Shown here one piece after another: positions 5,961 through 56,885 of a stretch of DNA of 64,000 nt. The notes beneath the pieces are model-generated. The model searched no databases and had not been told where the DNA came from. It saw only the letters and a list, made by a program, of their open reading frames with translations. Within the stretch, counting starts at the first letter, position 1, and each line of letters opens with the position of its first letter. The position numbers and the translations under genes are program-made. This DNA is from Lachnospiraceae bacterium NE2001 (GTDB lineage Bacteria; Bacillota; Clostridia; Lachnospirales; Lachnospiraceae): the NCBI GenBank assembly GCA_900110635.1, contig FOEK01000007.1:1-64000 (forward strand), read 5' to 3'.

Positions 5961-6020
5961 TATGTGCAATGGGGACTGTCCCCAATGCACATAGGTGCGT
6001 CCCTTTCTGCACTTTTTGTA
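5961..6020. repeat. Palindromic repeat, family 2, copy 1
   Basis: The core 5963-5991 is an imperfect palindrome: TGTGCA at one end, TGCACA at the other, with GGGGAC/GTCCCC inside and one mismatch. A degenerate half (GGTGCGTCCC then TGCAC) follows. It lies between the ruvX stop and the RNase J start. Other copies are at 12631-12680, 37466-37520 and 41496-41524. Confidence 0.88.
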
Positions 6021-11918: not shown

Positions 11919-11944
11919 AAGACAGGGGACGGTTCTCTGTCTTC
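11919..11944. repeat. Palindromic repeat, family 1, copy 1
   Basis: AAGACAG and CTGTCTT arms flank GGGACGGTT. It lies between the HAD gene stop and the aldolase start and is followed by a T-rich run on the plus strand. The same sequence family recurs at 18.4, 35.3, 54.8 and 56.9 kb. Confidence 0.85.
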
Positions 11945-12630: not shown

Positions 12631-12680
12631 GGTGCAGGTAGGGACAGACCTCGGTGCAGTGGGGACGGACCCCACTGCAC
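12631..12680. repeat. Palindromic repeat, family 2, copy 2
   Basis: The core GTGCAGTGGGG ... CCCCACTGCAC (12654-12680) is preceded by a degenerate half (GGTGCAGGTAGGGAC). It lies between the polC stop and the HAD gene start. Confidence 0.88.
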
Positions 12681-18411: not shown

Positions 18412-18468
18412 AAGACAGGTGACGGTTCTCTGTCCTATTTTCAAGACAGAGAACCGTCCCCTGTCTTG
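18412..18468. repeat. Palindromic repeat, family 1, inverted pair (copies 2 and 3)
   Basis: Two copies (18412-18434 and 18442-18468) in opposite orientation form a near-perfect hairpin of about 24 base pairs with a short A/T-rich loop, in the gap between rseP stop and ispG start. The paired arrangement resembles REP/BIME units. Confidence 0.88.
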
Positions 18469-35286: not shown

Positions 35287-35313
35287 CAAGACAGGGGACG
35301 GTTCTCTGTCTTG
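35287..35313. repeat. Palindromic repeat, family 1, copy 4
   Basis: CAAGACAG and CTGTCTTG arms around GGGACGGTTCT, lying between the def stop and the fmt start and filling most of that gap. Confidence 0.87.
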
Positions 35314-35866: not shown

Positions 35867-37969
35867 CTACATAATGTGTATCGGATTAAAGTCATACTGG
35901 ATATCAACGCTGTCTTTCTTTAGTTCGAGTGACAGGAAGGCTTCGTTAATTGAAGCCTCTGATATCTCAGCAGCCTTGGTCAGTATATCATATTTTTCCG
36001 ACTTTATATAGATAACACGTCGGAATATGTTGTTAATTCTATATATATAAGCCTCTGTCGGACCTACAATATCTATCTTATCAAATGCACTCTTTATGGC
36101 CTCAGCCACCCTCTGTGACATATCAATACACAGCTTCTCCTCAGCTGAGCTGACACAGATTCCAAGCAAATGATAAATTGGCGGGTAACGAAGCAGCTGA
36201 CGGTAGGATACCTCATAGTTATAGAAGGATTCATAGTCCTGCCCCGCAGCCGATGTGATGGCATAGTGTTCAGGCTGATAGGTCTGAATCACCACCTGAC
36301 CTGGAAGCTCGTCACGACCTGCTCTTCCAGCCGCCTGAGTAAGCAGATCAAATGTTCTTTCTGCCGATTCAAAATCGGTATCAAACAGGCTGAGATCCGC
36401 CAGTATATTTCCAACCACAGTCACCTTCGGAAAATCATGTCCCTTCACTATCATTTGAGTACCAATAAGACAGTCCGCCTTGCCATCGCGGAACTTCTTT
36501 ATGATAGCACCGTGGCTTCCCTTCTTTTGAGTGGTATCTCTGTCCATTCTAAGAGTCTTAACCCCAGGAAAGAGATCACGAATTGTCTCCTCCACCGTCT
36601 CAGTACCAACCCCCAAGCCGTCTATAAGATTGGATTTACACTTCGGACAAACCTTCGGAAGGGGTTCAGTATGACCACAGTAATGGCACATCAGTACATC
36701 CGGTCCACCAGGAGTTATGGTCCTGTGCTGCGATAAAGAAACATCACAGTTGGGACATTTTACAACCTCACCACAAGCTCTGCAGGAGATAAAAGTCCTG
36801 AAGCCACGCCTGTTAATGAAGATCATCGCCTGCTCCTTGCGGCTAAAGGCACCAGCCAACTTGTTATAAAGGGACTGTGATATAATACTGCGATTGCCGT
36901 TCTTCAGCTCCTCACGCATATCCACCACGTCCACCTCTGGAAGACTCACTCCCTTAACCCGGGTAAGCAGACTAAACAATTTATACTCACCCTGCTTAGC
37001 CTTGTAATAGCTCTCAATACTAGGAGTTGCAGAACCAAGAACCACCCTGGCCCCCTCAAGTCGAGCCCTTTCTATTGCAACTTCACGGGCGTGATACTTC
37101 GGAGTCTTCTCACTCTTATAGGATGTGTCATGCTCCTCATCAATTATGATCAGCCCAAGGTTCTGAAATGGAGCAAATAGGGCTGAACGCGGACCGATCA
37201 TTATATGAGTCTCACCACTCTCGGCCTTCATAAACTCACGGTACCTCTCGCCCTTACTGAGCTGTGAATTAAGAATAGAAATATTATCCTGAAAATAACT
37301 GCTAAACCTGGCAACAGTCTGAAATGTCAGCGCAATCTCAGGAACCAGAACTATAACATCCTGTCCACGGGAGAGCACCTCTTCCGCCATTTTTATGTAA
37401 ACCTCGGTCTTACCACTGCCCGTAACCCCATGCAGCAAATACGTAATTCCATCCCACTCCTCAGAATGTGCAGTTGGGGACGCTCCTATGTGCAATGGGG
37501 ACTGTCCCCCTTGCACATTTTGTGAACAAAAAGCATCAACTATGGCTTGCTGCTGGGGCTCCAGTTCGTCGATTGGCTGGAACTCGGGGATACTGTCCTT
37601 TATGTCGATTTCAGTCTTTCTCTCACGAACCTTTTCCTTTACCGGCATTACAGTCATCAGTGCACTGATCATTGTTGAGCCGTAGCGTTCCTTCATCCAT
37701 GCGGCCAGCCGGATCAGCCTGCTTTCGATGGAAATTGAGTTCGTAGAGACTTCATTTATACATTTTATCTTATTGATATCGTAATTCGGTTCATCTGCCA
37801 GTCCAATAACATATCCAGTCCTTATACGGTTGCCCTGGCCAAAGGGTACCTTCACCACAGAGCCCACCGAAACTTCGTCGATCAGCTCGTCTGGTATTCT
37901 ATATCTGAAAGGTCTATCAACATTACTCTGTGAAATATCGATTATTATATCCGCATATTTCTCCGACAT
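35867..37969 (-). CDS. priA: Primosomal protein N' (replication restart helicase) with repeat-derived insertion
   Basis: A 700-residue SF2 helicase. An N-terminal DNA-binding region precedes Walker A in HGVTGSGKTEVY (about residue 180), DEEHDTSYK, and the zinc-binding cysteine cluster (CRACGEVVKCPNC ... CHYCGH ... CPKCKS). QAAGRAGR-type motif VI is near 500. The ATG at 37969 has GGAGG upstream and the gene overlaps the murE 3' end by 47 bases. Residues about 150-170 (SQNVQGG ... TAHSEEW) are encoded by a family 2 palindromic repeat inserted in frame between the N-terminal domain and the helicase core. The helicase motifs on either side are intact. Confidence 0.95.
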   Translation of the reverse strand: MSEKYADIIIDISQSNVDRPFRYRIPDELIDEVSVGSVVKVPFGQGNRIRTGYVIGLADEPNYDINKIKCINEVSTNSISIESRLIRLAAWMKERYGSTMISALMTVMPVKEKVRERKTEIDIKDSIPEFQPIDELEPQQQAIVDAFCSQNVQGGQSPLHIGASPTAHSEEWDGITYLLHGVTGSGKTEVYIKMAEEVLSRGQDVIVLVPEIALTFQTVARFSSYFQDNISILNSQLSKGERYREFMKAESGETHIMIGPRSALFAPFQNLGLIIIDEEHDTSYKSEKTPKYHAREVAIERARLEGARVVLGSATPSIESYYKAKQGEYKLFSLLTRVKGVSLPEVDVVDMREELKNGNRSIISQSLYNKLAGAFSRKEQAMIFINRRGFRTFISCRACGEVVKCPNCDVSLSQHRTITPGGPDVLMCHYCGHTEPLPKVCPKCKSNLIDGLGVGTETVEETIRDLFPGVKTLRMDRDTTQKKGSHGAIIKKFRDGKADCLIGTQMIVKGHDFPKVTVVGNILADLSLFDTDFESAERTFDLLTQAAGRAGRDELPGQVVIQTYQPEHYAITSAAGQDYESFYNYEVSYRQLLRYPPIYHLLGICVSSAEEKLCIDMSQRVAEAIKSAFDKIDIVGPTEAYIYRINNIFRRVIYIKSEKYDILTKAAEISEASINEAFLSLELKKDSVDIQYDFNPIHIM
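37466..37520. repeat. Palindromic repeat, family 2, copy 3, inside priA
   Basis: A full copy (core 37489-37517 plus a degenerate half, TGTGCAGTTGGGGACGCTCC) within the priA coding sequence. It keeps the reading frame and adds about 20 residues ahead of the Walker A motif. Confidence 0.9.
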
Positions 37970-39476
37970 CCTCTTCCTCCAAAATCTCACGTATCAGGTC
38001 ACGTTCATCCATATGATGCTTTACGCCGTGAATCTCCTGATAGTCCTCGTGGCCCTTGCCAGCAAGGATTATTACGTCGCCCTCCTTCGCATTCATAATT
38101 GCGAAACGAATGGCCTCTTTTCTATCAATTATATCTATATATGCCCCACCGGCCTTCTCAACTGATGACTTGATATCATCAAGTATCGCCTGTGGTTCCT
38201 CATCTCTCGGGTTATCACTGGTAATAATAGTAAAATCAGCATACTTAGCCGACACCTCACCCATCTCATAACGACGTGCTTTGGCTCTGTTTCCGCCACA
38301 ACCAAAGAGCGTAACAAGCCGTTCCGGCTCGTACTCACGTATTGCCTTAAGCAGCGACTCCAGGGACATTCCATTATGAGCATAATCGATCATAAGGGTA
38401 AATGCATCTGATATTGGTATCATTTCAACACGGCCCCTAACCTTGATCATCTCAAGAATCCGCTTTATTTCATCGAAGCTGACACCCATACAATCTGCAA
38501 CTATAGTGGCAGCCATAGAATTATAAATGCTGAAATCACCTGGAAGTGCCACGCGGACATGTCCCTCCAGAGTTCCATCTATATCATACTCAATACCAAG
38601 TATACCATTTTCCTGATAAAGCTTATGACCACGGGCTATATAATCAGCATCCTCATTCTTTCCATAGGTAATAGGTGCTGCCGTGCTGCCATCCATCATA
38701 TATTCTGCCTCAGGATCATCGATATTGTAGATTCCGGTTTTGCATATTGAGAAAAGCTTCTTCTTGCACTCCTTATAATTCTCATAGCTATCATGCTCAT
38801 TTGGCCCGATATGGTCAGGAGAAAGATTGGTAAATATTCCAAAATCAAACTCGATACCAGCGACACGATCCAGCATAAGTCCCTGGGATGAAACCTCCAT
38901 TACCACTGCTTCACAGCCATTGTCTGACATATCACGAAGCTTCTTCTGAATAGTAATGGATTCAGGCGTTGTGTTCACAGCAGGAATCTTTTCCTTACCA
39001 TCATCAATCTCAATAGTACCAATGAGGCCAGTCTTTATGCCTGCAAGCTCCAGCATTTCCTTAACCATATAGGTAGTAGTTGTCTTGCCCTTCGTTCCTG
39101 TTATACCGATAATCGTCATCTCCTCAGATGGTTTATCATAAAACTTAGAACTCATTACGCCCATAGCATATCTTATATTCTCAACCTCGATAATTGTGAG
39201 ACTGGTTTCCTCATCCAGGTTGCCATTTACCAGCATATCATTCTCAAGAAGATTCTCCAGTGCCTTTTCAGCCTTCTCAGTTACTATAGCTGCAGCACCA
39301 GCCCTTATTACATCCGGGATAAATACAGCTCCATCAACCTTTGCACCAGGTACTGCAAAGTAAAGGCCACCCTCTACCACTTTTCGCGAATCGTTTGTTA
39401 CATCCTTAATCTCAGTATCCAGGTCTCCACAAATCAGTTCAATCTCTAAATCCCCAACTATATCCCTTAGAAACAT
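37923..39476 (-). CDS. murE: UDP-N-acetylmuramoyl-L-alanyl-D-glutamate ligase (meso-DAP type)
   Basis: A 517-residue Mur ligase that adds the third stem-peptide residue. ITGTKGKTTTTYMV is the ATP loop, TTPESI follows, and the C-terminal domain carries SDNPRDEEP. The DNPR motif is the known signature for meso-diaminopimelate rather than lysine. The 3' end overlaps priA by 47 bases in another frame, which is longer than usual. It follows rpoZ with a stem-loop between. No murF or mraY follows. Confidence 0.95.
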   Translation of the reverse strand: MFLRDIVGDLEIELICGDLDTEIKDVTNDSRKVVEGGLYFAVPGAKVDGAVFIPDVIRAGAAAIVTEKAEKALENLLENDMLVNGNLDEETSLTIIEVENIRYAMGVMSSKFYDKPSEEMTIIGITGTKGKTTTTYMVKEMLELAGIKTGLIGTIEIDDGKEKIPAVNTTPESITIQKKLRDMSDNGCEAVVMEVSSQGLMLDRVAGIEFDFGIFTNLSPDHIGPNEHDSYENYKECKKKLFSICKTGIYNIDDPEAEYMMDGSTAAPITYGKNEDADYIARGHKLYQENGILGIEYDIDGTLEGHVRVALPGDFSIYNSMAATIVADCMGVSFDEIKRILEMIKVRGRVEMIPISDAFTLMIDYAHNGMSLESLLKAIREYEPERLVTLFGCGGNRAKARRYEMGEVSAKYADFTIITSDNPRDEEPQAILDDIKSSVEKAGGAYIDIIDRKEAIRFAIMNAKEGDVIILAGKGHEDYQEIHGVKHHMDERDLIREILEEEDVGEICGYNNRYFTE

Positions 39477-40500: not shown

Positions 40501-41445
40501 TTATTCGAGGTTTTGTACCTGCTCACGAACCTTCTCGATACACGTCTTCATGTTGATACCAATATCCGTAACTGATAGTGTATCTGACTTGGATAATGTT
40601 GTATTTGCCTCACGGTTCATTTCCTGGATAATGAAGTCCAGACGTCTTCCGATAGAACTTGAATTATCAGAAGCATTTTTACCAGATTCTTCTGCACCAG
40701 TACCTTCAGAACCAGCAGTTTCCATGGATTCAGAAAGCATATCACGCACTGCCTTGATATGACTATGAAGTCTTACCAGTTCCTCGTCAACTGCAACTCT
40801 GTCTGCATAGATAGCAACCTCCTGAACGATACGACTCTCATCTATATTTGCTGTCTCCAGAAGATTACTAACCTTCTCAGTAAGTCTCGCCTGATACTCC
40901 TCAATAACCTTCGGAGCCAGCTCATCAACCTGATTTGTGTAGCCCTCAAGCTCGTCCATCTTTGCAATCAGATCACTTGCAAGATTTGCGCCTTCCTTAG
41001 CACGGGAAGCTCTAAACTGTTTTCCTGCCTCATCCAGAACCTTCTCGATAACCTGATACTCTTCATCCTCAACAAAGTAATTCTCCTCTATAGAGAAAAC
41101 ATCAGGATATCTTGCTATAACTGTCGGCTTATAATCCTCAGTCAGTCCGTAGTCCTCTTCCATCTGCTTAAAATGTGCCATATACTGATCCAGCACGTCC
41201 TTGTTGTACTTAACGACTGCACCTGTATCCTTAAGACTGTTGTACGTGATGAAAACATCAACCTTACCACGCTCCACATAGAGCTTCAGTCTCTTCCTGA
41301 TCTCAGGCTCGAAACGACTGATACTCCTGGGAAGCTTCACGCTTATATCGCAGTATCTGTGATTTACAGACTTTATCTCAATTACTACTCTTCTCGCCTC
41401 GTCAGAATACTCGCTTCTGCCAAAGCCTGTCATACTATATACCAT
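40501..41445 (-). CDS. yicC: YicC-family endoribonuclease
   Basis: A 314-residue protein. The N-terminal YicC domain starts with SMTGFGRSEY and NHRYCDISVKLPR. The C-terminal DUF1732 part has GRRLDFIIQEMNREANT. E. coli YicC and Bacillus YloC are endoribonucleases. A Ser/Gly/Glu-rich insertion of about 20 residues (near 240-265) separates the two parts. It is the first gene of the operon and has a strong promoter. Confidence 0.9.
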   Translation of the reverse strand: MVYSMTGFGRSEYSDEARRVVIEIKSVNHRYCDISVKLPRSISRFEPEIRKRLKLYVERGKVDVFITYNSLKDTGAVVKYNKDVLDQYMAHFKQMEEDYGLTEDYKPTVIARYPDVFSIEENYFVEDEEYQVIEKVLDEAGKQFRASRAKEGANLASDLIAKMDELEGYTNQVDELAPKVIEEYQARLTEKVSNLLETANIDESRIVQEVAIYADRVAVDEELVRLHSHIKAVRDMLSESMETAGSEGTGAEESGKNASDNSSSIGRRLDFIIQEMNREANTTLSKSDTLSVTDIGINMKTCIEKVREQVQNLE

Positions 41446-41495: not shown

Positions 41496-41524
41496 TGTGC
41501 AATGGGGACAGTCCCCACTGCACA
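41496..41524. repeat. Palindromic repeat, family 2, copy 4
   Basis: A compact copy, TGTGCA ... TGCACA with GGGGAC/GTCCCC and one mismatch. It abuts the -10 box of the yicC promoter and would form a hairpin at the very 5' end of the long operon transcript. Confidence 0.9.
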
Positions 41525-46688: not shown

Positions 46689-48008
46689 TTACATAGGACG
46701 TGGATTAGCGCAAGCAGAACATACATCACCTGTGTTAGTTGTTCCGCAGCAGTCACATACCCATTGACCGCCACCCTGCATCTGGCCCATGCCCATCTGA
46801 CCTGGCATTCCCTGCTGTGGCATTCCGCCCATCTGGCCTGGCATTCCCTGCTGTGGCATTCCGCCCATCTGGCCCGGCATTCCCTGCTGTGGCATTCCCA
46901 TCTGACCTGGCATACCGCCCTGCATTCCCATGCCCTGCTGCATACCCTGCATCTGCTGCTGTCTCTGCTGCTGCATCATCTGGCTCTGCATATCATTTCC
47001 TGCAAGACCATCCATAGCTGCACCTGCAACTGCTCCGAGAGCCTGTCCTGCAAGACCACCAATTCCGCCACCTGTGAGGTTGTTAACCATCTGGCCAACA
47101 CCACCCATGCCTGAGTTCATACCGCCCATCTGGCCCATGCCACCCATCTGGTTCATGCCGCCCTGCATTCCCATGCCGCCCTGCATTCCGCCCATCTGGC
47201 CCATGCCGCCCTGCATTCCCATGCCGCCTTGCATTCCACCCATCTGGCCCATGCCGCCCTGCATTCCCATGCCGCCTTGCATTCCACCCATCTGGTTCAT
47301 ACCCATCTGGCCCATGCCGCCCATCTGGCCCATGCCCATCTGGCCCATGCCGCCCATCTGGCCCATGCCCATCTGGCCCATGCCGCCCTGCATTCCCATT
47401 CCCATGCCCATACGGCCACCGGAAAGAGCCTGCTGGATCTGCATACCCATCTGCTCAAAGTTATTGTACTGCATATCACCTCTCTGCTTTGGACGAGTAG
47501 ACATGGTTGTAAGCTCGAACTTAATCTCATCAAAATATGGTGAATTAACATTTATTGTTGTCTCAAACTCATAAGAATACTCATATCTTCTAGGATTGTA
47601 AGGAACGTTCTTACCCTCAGAATCCTTTCTAAAGATTTCCTTCTTATGCTCCTCAGCCTCAGTGAATACACTGGAAACCTGGCTGATATCTATAATATCA
47701 GGATTTGTAGATCTCCAATCACGTGCTGATGATACTGCAAATGTAGCTGTGTTCTGATCAACATAAACCTTAGTATCATTTCCAAGAACCATAGTTGGAT
47801 TAAATGCTGCAACGCGCTGCTTGTTCTGCTCACGATACTCAAGGTGCTGCTTGATCTCATCAATAGTAGTATGTCTTCTACCTGATAAGAAAGGTGACAG
47901 CTTAGCTGAGCAGTTCTTGCACATATTGCCATCCTCCAGCTTACGGTTACCCATAAGGCTTATCTTCTCCCCACAGATATCACAGAATTTTGCATCAAAA
48001 AGTCCCAT
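46689..48008 (-). CDS. DUF4428-like zinc-ribbon protein with Met/Gly/Gln tandem repeats
   Basis: A 439-residue protein. Residues about 8-50 form a zinc-ribbon start (FCDICGEKISLMGNRKL, CKNCSAKL) like DUF4428. Residues 60-190 are a folded region with VYVDQNTATFAVSS and EFETTINVNSPYFDEIKFEL. Residues about 205-410 are low complexity: an 11-16-residue repeat of MGQMGG/MQGGMG, then a 12-residue repeat of GMPGQMGGMPQQ. The last 25 residues are a second zinc ribbon (WVCDCCGTTNTGDVCSACANP). The frame is clean through the repeats and a GGGAGG site precedes the ATG. Function is unknown; the metal-knuckle ends and flexible middle suggest an assembly or adaptor protein. Confidence 0.8.
   Translation of the reverse strand: MGLFDAKFCDICGEKISLMGNRKLEDGNMCKNCSAKLSPFLSGRRHTTIDEIKQHLEYREQNKQRVAAFNPTMVLGNDTKVYVDQNTATFAVSSARDWRSTNPDIIDISQVSSVFTEAEEHKKEIFRKDSEGKNVPYNPRRYEYSYEFETTINVNSPYFDEIKFELTTMSTRPKQRGDMQYNNFEQMGMQIQQALSGGRMGMGMGMQGGMGQMGMGQMGGMGQMGMGQMGGMGQMGMNQMGGMQGGMGMQGGMGQMGGMQGGMGMQGGMGQMGGMQGGMGMQGGMNQMGGMGQMGGMNSGMGGVGQMVNNLTGGGIGGLAGQALGAVAGAAMDGLAGNDMQSQMMQQQRQQQMQGMQQGMGMQGGMPGQMGMPQQGMPGQMGGMPQQGMPGQMGGMPQQGMPGQMGMGQMQGGGQWVCDCCGTTNTGDVCSACANPRPM
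46770..46915. repeat. 36-base coding tandem repeats (12-residue unit)
   Basis: Three to four near-identical 36-base units encode GMPGQMGGMPQQ in the C-terminal third of the zinc-ribbon protein. Confidence 0.85.
47105..47410. repeat. 33- and 48-base coding tandem repeats
   Basis: Units encoding MGQMGMGQMGG (11 residues) and MQGGMGMQGGMGQMGG (16 residues) follow one another. Copies are nearly identical at the DNA level, which suggests recent expansion and likely length variation between strains. Confidence 0.85.
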
Positions 48009-54802: not shown

Positions 54803-54860
54803 AAAGACAGGGGACGGTTCTCCGTCTTATTTTTAAGACAGAGAACCGTCCCCTGTCTTC
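54803..54860. repeat. Palindromic repeat, family 1, inverted pair (copies 5 and 6)
   Basis: Two copies in opposite orientation form a hairpin of about 26 pairs with one mismatch and a four-T loop between the EAL gene stop and the CoA-transferase start. Confidence 0.9.
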
Positions 54861-56860: not shown

Positions 56861-56885
56861 AAGACAGAGAACCGTTCCCTGTCTT
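56861..56885. repeat. Palindromic repeat, family 1, copy 7, at the rqcH stop codon
   Basis: AAGACAGAGAACCG ... CCTGTCTT. The last bases (GTCTTA on the plus strand) overlap the rqcH stop codon TAA at 56884-56886. Confidence 0.85.

Follow-up and report, generated by a model that had tools for sequence, protein, structure and literature searches.

RPEs were reportedly described in Rickettsia by Ogata in 2000. These palindromes lie in pre-existing ORFs, where the reading frame is kept and placement is solvent-exposed, and they measure 100–150 bp, with one RPE-4 at 84; the same loci are occupied in related species, and at times another RPE group lies close by (PMC3767692, in part). RPE-4 and RPE-6 are CGTC-tagged repeats that were found not associated with transposase genes (PMC3733652, in part). 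Intragenic REPs are known in many genera, where they occur in replication, repair and tRNA-modification genes and contribute 20–30 residues when dimeric or grouped, and in recB two Xanthomonas species carry different REPs at nearly the same position (PMC3733652, in part). REPs also lie in frame inside transposase genes (PMC6006769, in part). In the TIRYT group, RAYT-like proteins are flanked by GGGGWSAS repeats (PMC3733652, PMC6006769, both in part), and the proteins of TIRYT subclass 2.1 have a C-terminal HTH (PMC6006769, in part). As far as these portions of the sources go, in-frame palindromes in genes are already known, both as RPEs in Rickettsia and as intragenic REPs.

The repeat described here lies inside priA of the gut bacterium Lachnospiraceae bacterium NE2001 (genome G000), in a stretch of 64,000 nucleotides, called the window below. 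Its family is shared with Lachnospiraceae bacterium AC2031 (G005). As in the REP/REPIN-RAYT systems, short palindromes are present in about 100 copies, mostly intergenic, flank a Y1 transposase gene and co-occur with it (PMC2817692, PMC3116915, both in part), and the many dispersed copies are mostly extragenic, only 4 of at least 113 sites located by pattern being genic. In apparent contrast to those systems, no fixed unpaired GT[AG]G foot is seen in the family, and its transposase scores below the NCBIfam cut-off. The classes of genes entered resemble those of intragenic REPs, although the repeat families are others (PMC3733652, in part); in the main text of that paper, there are 0 mentions of priA, tsaD, dihydrouridine or response regulator. 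In-frame palindromic copies inside protein genes are a feature shared with the RPEs, from which the present family differs in its 49-nt core, the lack of a CGTC end in the consensus and a transposase gene flanked by the repeat. The transposase most resembles the TIRYT group. Like the TIRYT/TIRtron systems, a RAYT-like Y1 transposase is flanked by GGGGWSAS repeats, here GGGGACAG, and the repeats form a dispersed family with some copies close together; in contrast, the unit here is a 49-nt tail plus palindrome, the flanking copies in G005 face the same way, and some members lie in frame within genes, a placement not described for TIR families in the parts of PMC3733652 and PMC6006769 covered. 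The present case adds to these precedents an association with a TIR-like transposase, the particular genes entered, and the differences in subtype and orientation between two species within one loop. A literature search on in-frame palindromic or REP insertions in PriA found no paper, and among the matches listed in another search none was, by title, on repeats in Lachnospiraceae genes.

The repeat copy in priA and its loop

The identity of priA is supported by TIGR00595 (605.9 bits against a cut-off of 230.35), and the ORF contains the Pfam domains PriA_3primeBD, DEAD, Helicase_C, Zn_ribbon_PriA and PriA_C (Table 1). Its repeat copy, at G000:C28:37468-37516 (+), shows 0 mismatches to the pattern GTGCANNNNGGGNCNNNCCNNNGTGCANNGGGGNCNGNCCCCNNTGCAC. 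The protein reads ...FCSQN-VQGGQSPLHIGASPTAH-SEEWDGITYLLHGVTGSGKTE... across the insert, with the repeat in frame. This full match within an open ORF bears out the first-pass annotation, in which a copy of an intergenic palindrome had been placed in frame inside priA. The palindrome is present, but the unit that repeats is larger, comprising 49 nt with a tail. As DNA, positions 37464-37520 fold with z values of -3.73 and -4.29 for the two strands, and 0 of 200 dinucleotide shuffles folded as well on either strand. Residues are indeed added to PriA; rather than the estimated 20 or so, the repeat encodes 17, and relative to the most frequent loop length, 12 aa, the G000 loop is extended by 18.

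Table 1. Coordinates, strands and properties of the priA features and of repeat copies elsewhere in the window
Feature	Position	Strand	Remarks
priA ORF	35867..37990	minus	replication restart helicase PriA, 707 aa; contains the repeat
49-nt repeat core, subtype A	37468..37516	plus (opposite to priA)	encodes PriA residues 159-175, VQGGQSPLHIGASPTAH
Palindromic half (TGTGCA..GGGGACTGTCCCC..TGCACA)	37489..37517	.	0 mismatches
PriA loop, residues 155-184 (30 aa)	37439..37528	minus	between first helix of helicase lobe 1 and Walker A strand
Walker A GVTGSGKTE, residues 188-196	37403..37429	minus	intact in PriA sequence
Full copy, subtype A	5964..6012	minus	before likely start codon of next minus-strand gene
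Full copy, subtype B	12632..12680	plus	not flagged genic; letter-identical over 49 nt to G005 counterpart
Palindromic half only	41496..41524	.	just before start of ORF 40501-41445 (-)

An AlphaFold2 model of PriA, built with 35 sequences, had a mean pLDDT of 81.7, and its best fold matches were PriA structures (8fak, 6dcr). In this model a helix (145-161) and the Walker A strand (183-188) are separated by a low-confidence loop, in which residues 161-179 fall below 50. This places the insert within helicase lobe 1, ahead of the Walker A strand, and not between the DNA-binding region and the helicase core as had been proposed. The earlier wording was natural given the Pfam boundaries, which place the 3'-DNA-binding domain at 15-116 and begin DEAD at 184. 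Walker A residues G188 and T190-E196 are invariant in the PriA alignment A1.

PriA matches were obtained in 61 genomes (the own genome, 36 of the genus and 24 of the order), and 30 same-genus loci were listed and aligned. The loop between F and LLHG ranges from 9 to 30 aa and is 12 aa long in 20 of these 30 PriAs. Three repeat-free PriAs among the 30 also have a 30-aa loop. Going by the alignment, loop length alone is unremarkable and it is the origin of its letters that is unusual. A check of presence or absence in the priA genes of relatives had been suggested; by eye, among the 30 aligned, the repeat-derived residues occur only in the PriAs of G000 and G005, and no conservation of these residues was seen in repeat-free PriAs. 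Both the range of loop lengths and the low confidence of the modelled loop support the earlier suggestion that PriA tolerates a linker here.

The nearest PriA relatives are those of G005 (85% identity) and G033 (83%). In the case of G033, the loop is INDISQVDISKTPEWDKTTY, 20 aa in length, which makes the G000 loop 10 aa longer; a pattern search of the G033 genome, allowing up to 3 mismatches, found no full repeat copy. The G005 priA does carry a copy in the same loop, of subtype B and in the orientation opposite to that of the G000 copy. Both copies begin five residues after the same Phe (FCSQN-VQ in G000, FCQEM-VQ in G005), and the SEEWDGITY stretch that follows the repeat in G000 is absent from G005 PriA.

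As a separate observation, the distance from VMPVK to the Walker A glycine is 53-74 residues in the genus PriAs (27/27) and 125-128 in 8/8 other PriAs, which were hand-picked from 80 named loci and which we take to be from Lachnospiraceae. On these sequences, a winged-helix stretch seems to be absent from the genus PriA. One of the best fold matches, 6dcr, is an E. coli PriA from which the winged helix was deleted.

The repeat family in G000 and G005

The 49-nt pattern, GTGCA N4 GGGNCNNNCC N3 GTGCA NN GGGGNCNGNCCCC NN TGCAC, was derived from copies in the window and in G005. Its right 27-29 nt form the palindrome, and its left 22 nt form a tail that resembles the first half of the palindrome in direct orientation; a few conserved A/T bases lie on either side of the core. 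When up to 3 mismatches were allowed, 79 full matches were found in G000 and 56 in G005 (a few of them overlapping), and of the 61 genus genomes the remaining 59 contained no full repeat. The palindrome by itself, at the same tolerance, gave 119 matches per strand in G000. Genome-wide, a reversed control pattern gave 0 matches, both for the full repeat and for the palindrome.

Subtype A (CCTATGTGCA) accounts for 55 of the 82 full matches in the G000 stretches and for 0 of 64 in those of G005, the two sets representing 81 and 59 distinct places; most G005 matches read CCTTG or CCTCG. Syntenic pairs between the two genomes numbered 24 of 82 and were detectable only where G005 stretches were covered. 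A G005 counterpart occupies the corresponding site for 14 of the 27 non-A matches in G000, and in 14/14 the relative orientation agrees. For A-type matches the number with a counterpart is 5/55 (priA, cvfB and three intergenic sites). From this difference, B looks like the older stock, with A having expanded later in the G000 lineage. At two intergenic sites (L050) the borders are the same in both genomes, although the G000 copy is of subtype A and the G005 copy is not, and these shared borders point to replacement in place.

No G005 copy was found at the place matching the window copy at 5964. At the two aligned empty sites (this one and L053), where the flanks have diverged, no clean joint was found, nor a target-site duplication of the kind expected for a MITE of a DDE transposase. 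For the copy at 12632, identity to G005 is only 79% and 90% in the flanks against an identical core. The locus L044 was considered as a second case of reversed orientation and rejected; G005 has a tandem array there, so the orientation is unclear. Also rejected was the idea that the element stands out by having every reading frame open. In the B consensus 6/6 frames are open and in the A consensus 5/6, but 16% and 24% of dinucleotide shuffles, respectively, do as well, as do 7% (B) and 8% (A) of shuffles that keep the palindrome.

Other repeats were noted along the way. Two tandem half elements lie just before a likely start codon at L312 (G000:C41) and at L291 (G005). A second family, AAGACAGGGGACGGTTCTCTGTCTT, occurs singly or in facing pairs at window positions 11919-11943, 18412-18467, 35288-35312, 54804-54859 and 56861-56885; its members contain GGGGACGG as well, and a different transposase may serve them. 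At 46791-47402 there are direct repeats, 36 and 72 nt long, that resemble a low-complexity coding stretch.

Copies in other genes and the associated transposase

The search for other in-frame copies that had been suggested, made over the stretches around the matches listed, was productive. Besides priA, internal in-frame copies were found in G000 in dusB, cvfB, tsaD and a response regulator, and in G005 in cvfB, the response regulator and tsaD (a half element). The first three genes were identified through TIGR00737 (dusB), TIGR03723 (tsaD) and Pfam CvfB_WH/S1_2 (cvfB), whereas the response regulator was named from its receiver motifs by eye. The claim that these repeats move or are copied into genes thus stands as far as in-frame copies in five genes go; movement itself we infer from the sequences, as no polymorphism or excision was seen.

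Four of the five genic loops (priA, cvfB, tsaD, regulator) are occupied in both species, and the copies in the last three have the same element orientation in G000 and G005. dusB of G005 was examined as a decayed copy, but there is only some likeness and it was left out of the count. In the case of the regulator, the G000 copy (L321, G000:C30:50814-51146) is diverged and was found by protein search. Its palindrome is changed on both arms and still pairs (GTGCGAGTGGGGG / CCCCCACTCGCAC). By hand count the regulator cores are 51 and 48 nt in the two species, compared to the usual 49, which fits frame adjustment by small indels. Relatives without the repeat fill the same loops of dusB, cvfB, tsaD and the regulator with different residues, and the loop length varies; for dusB and tsaD 8 genomes were compared, for cvfB 6 out of 8 searched, and for the regulator 4 out of 6, G000 and G005 included. 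The PriA, Dus and receiver loops presumably each connect a helix to the strand that follows, at the side of the protein facing away from the catalytic site. A model of TsaD (7 sequences) had a mean pLDDT of 61.6, with 116-147 below 50, and does not resolve the loop.

Genic copies are rare. At least 5 of 114 sites in G000 were genic, as compared to about 102.5 expected at random from the coding fraction of the window (0.899, a codon-score estimate). The 114 sites, themselves a minimum drawn from stretches around the matches listed, are the 113 that the pattern located together with the regulator copy, which a protein search revealed. An automatic filter flagged 9 of at least 113 G000 sites and 15 of at least 98 G005 sites; inspection kept 4 and 4, and those dropped were either leader sequences preceding a start codon or chance frames with a weak coding signal. 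Since the pattern missed the diverged G000 regulator copy, the genic counts are lower bounds.

A transposase gene is flanked by the repeat in both genomes. It lies at G000:C41:113508-114242, and its G005 homologue is 96% identical. Relatives occur in 21 of 61 genus genomes, the next best genome after G005 being at 57%, and G005 has a second relative at 45%. Repeat and close (96%) transposase co-occur in G000 and G005 only, among the 61 genus genomes. Upstream, an element ends about 105 nt before the start codon (full in G005, half in G000); downstream, a full element begins 6 nt after the last sense codon in both genomes. GGGGWSAS, in the form given above, is found in both flanking copies in G005 and in the downstream copy in G000, and is absent from the upstream half. 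The full flanking copies in G005 face the same way, and an inverted arrangement exists only at the level of the self-complementary halves. GT[AG]G letters are present in the core of 22/82 G000 and 44/64 G005 matches; they do not occur in the A consensus, and the GTGG of the B consensus sits within the paired stem.

The protein matches Pfam Y1_Tnp with 45.3 bits (cut-off 23) and has an HVH motif by eye. Its score against NCBIfam REP_Tyr_transpos (NF047646), 52.4 bits, lies under the cut-off of 80. In its C-terminal 91 aa, HTH_3 (E 0.0094) and HTH_7 (E 0.014) matched, both below cut-off, and a phmmer search of the PDB gave no match at E 0.001.

Of the six Y1_Tnp matches in G000, five are at contig ends. 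These IS200-like fragments (L001, L002, L004, L005 and L006) are cut at the contig ends, three with the same start, and they are probably a multicopy IS that breaks the draft assembly. As movers of the element they were judged unlikely. The C54 fragment (L002) has a repeat copy 153 nt away, and another mobiliser may therefore be involved. The C58 fragment has a doubtful copy (6 mismatches) 230 nt away, and of the remaining three, one has a copy 1214 nt away and two have no copy in the stretch examined.

Probable origin and persistence of the priA copy

We consider with good confidence that the insert is a copy of a REP/TIR-type selfish element, mobilised by a transposase and tolerated only in disposable loops. 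The Y1 (IS200-like) transposase encoded by the flanked gene very probably moves or copies the element as a single-stranded hairpin. One copy would have landed in frame in the poorly ordered, length-variable loop of PriA, which would have stayed functional, so that the copy was kept as presumably neutral for PriA. Harmful genic copies elsewhere would have been removed by selection, which would account for nearly all known copies lying outside genes, and the same filter would have left copies in the loops of dusB, cvfB, tsaD and the response regulator. Counting against this reading, the overlap at 4/5 genic sites exceeds what free, lineage-specific hopping would give. The REP_Tyr_transpos score under its cut-off, the GT[AG]G letters that are not fixed, the two empty sites without a clean joint and the copy beside the C54 fragment also weigh against it.

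Judging from the sequences, priA may have been hit twice, in G000 and in G005, or once with later replacement and inversion. The chances seem about even that there was one ancestral priA insertion before the two lineages split, followed in G000 by in-place replacement with a reversed subtype A copy, the mechanism being either gene conversion or an exchange among dispersed copies driven by the transposase. Since the element ends are inverted repeats of each other, such an exchange could conceivably take place in either orientation. The common starting point five residues past the same Phe argues for such a history, as do the cvfB, tsaD and regulator loops, occupied in both species in the same orientation, and the two L050 sites, which keep their borders and differ in subtype. 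Against it, orientation and right border differ in priA, where G005 is without SEEWDGITY, and the 14/14 shared sites with a non-A copy in G000 keep their orientation. One shared ancestral insertion per gene also bears on the idea that the element prefers certain genes or sequences, so that genic copies are not just survivors. Occupation in both species is found for 3/4 genic as compared to 3/53 intergenic subtype A copies (Fisher p 0.0026), but this test was post hoc, and its 53 is one too many, the correct value being 52. Shared ancestral insertions explain the overlap as well, and no shared target letters were seen beyond A/T-rich flanks; we consider a true target preference improbable.

We regard it as equally doubtful that the insert is useful, the added residues or an mRNA hairpin altering PriA or its level and being selected. 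Both species have an in-frame copy despite 15% of positions differing between their PriAs, and many REP insertions in replication and repair genes have been noted, with speculation on their use (PMC3733652, in part). However, other residues fill the loop in other species, its letters differ between these two, and the five genes share no evident pathway. An artefact, whether an assembly error, an incorrect frame or a native linker that is palindromic by chance, is hardly credible. While G000 is a draft of 62 contigs, priA lies mid-contig (C28, 183,628 bases), G005, a genome in a single contig, carries a member of the family in this loop too, and the control pattern gave 0 matches genome-wide.

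A speculative extension, which we consider possible but rather unlikely, is that a few surface loops of housekeeping proteins are standing docking sites. After first being occupied, such a loop would have its element swapped again and again for subtypes active at the time, in one orientation or the other, through replacement driven by the transposase or by recombination. If this were true, in-gene copies would be a maintained, turning-over population within important genes and not one-off scars, and the proteins of sister species would differ in these loops through turnover of the element at the DNA level.

In the preferred reading, of a selfish element tolerated in disposable loops, an in-gene palindromic insert is tied to a specific transposase that is most like the little-described TIR type. 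It also places such inserts in Lachnospiraceae, a host family not named for in-gene repeats in the covered parts of the REP, TIR and RPE literature cited. A pair of related species whose shared loops carry different subtypes offers a testable system for selfish DNA rewriting protein loops, and the loops that are occupied provide a natural map of insertion tolerance in conserved proteins.
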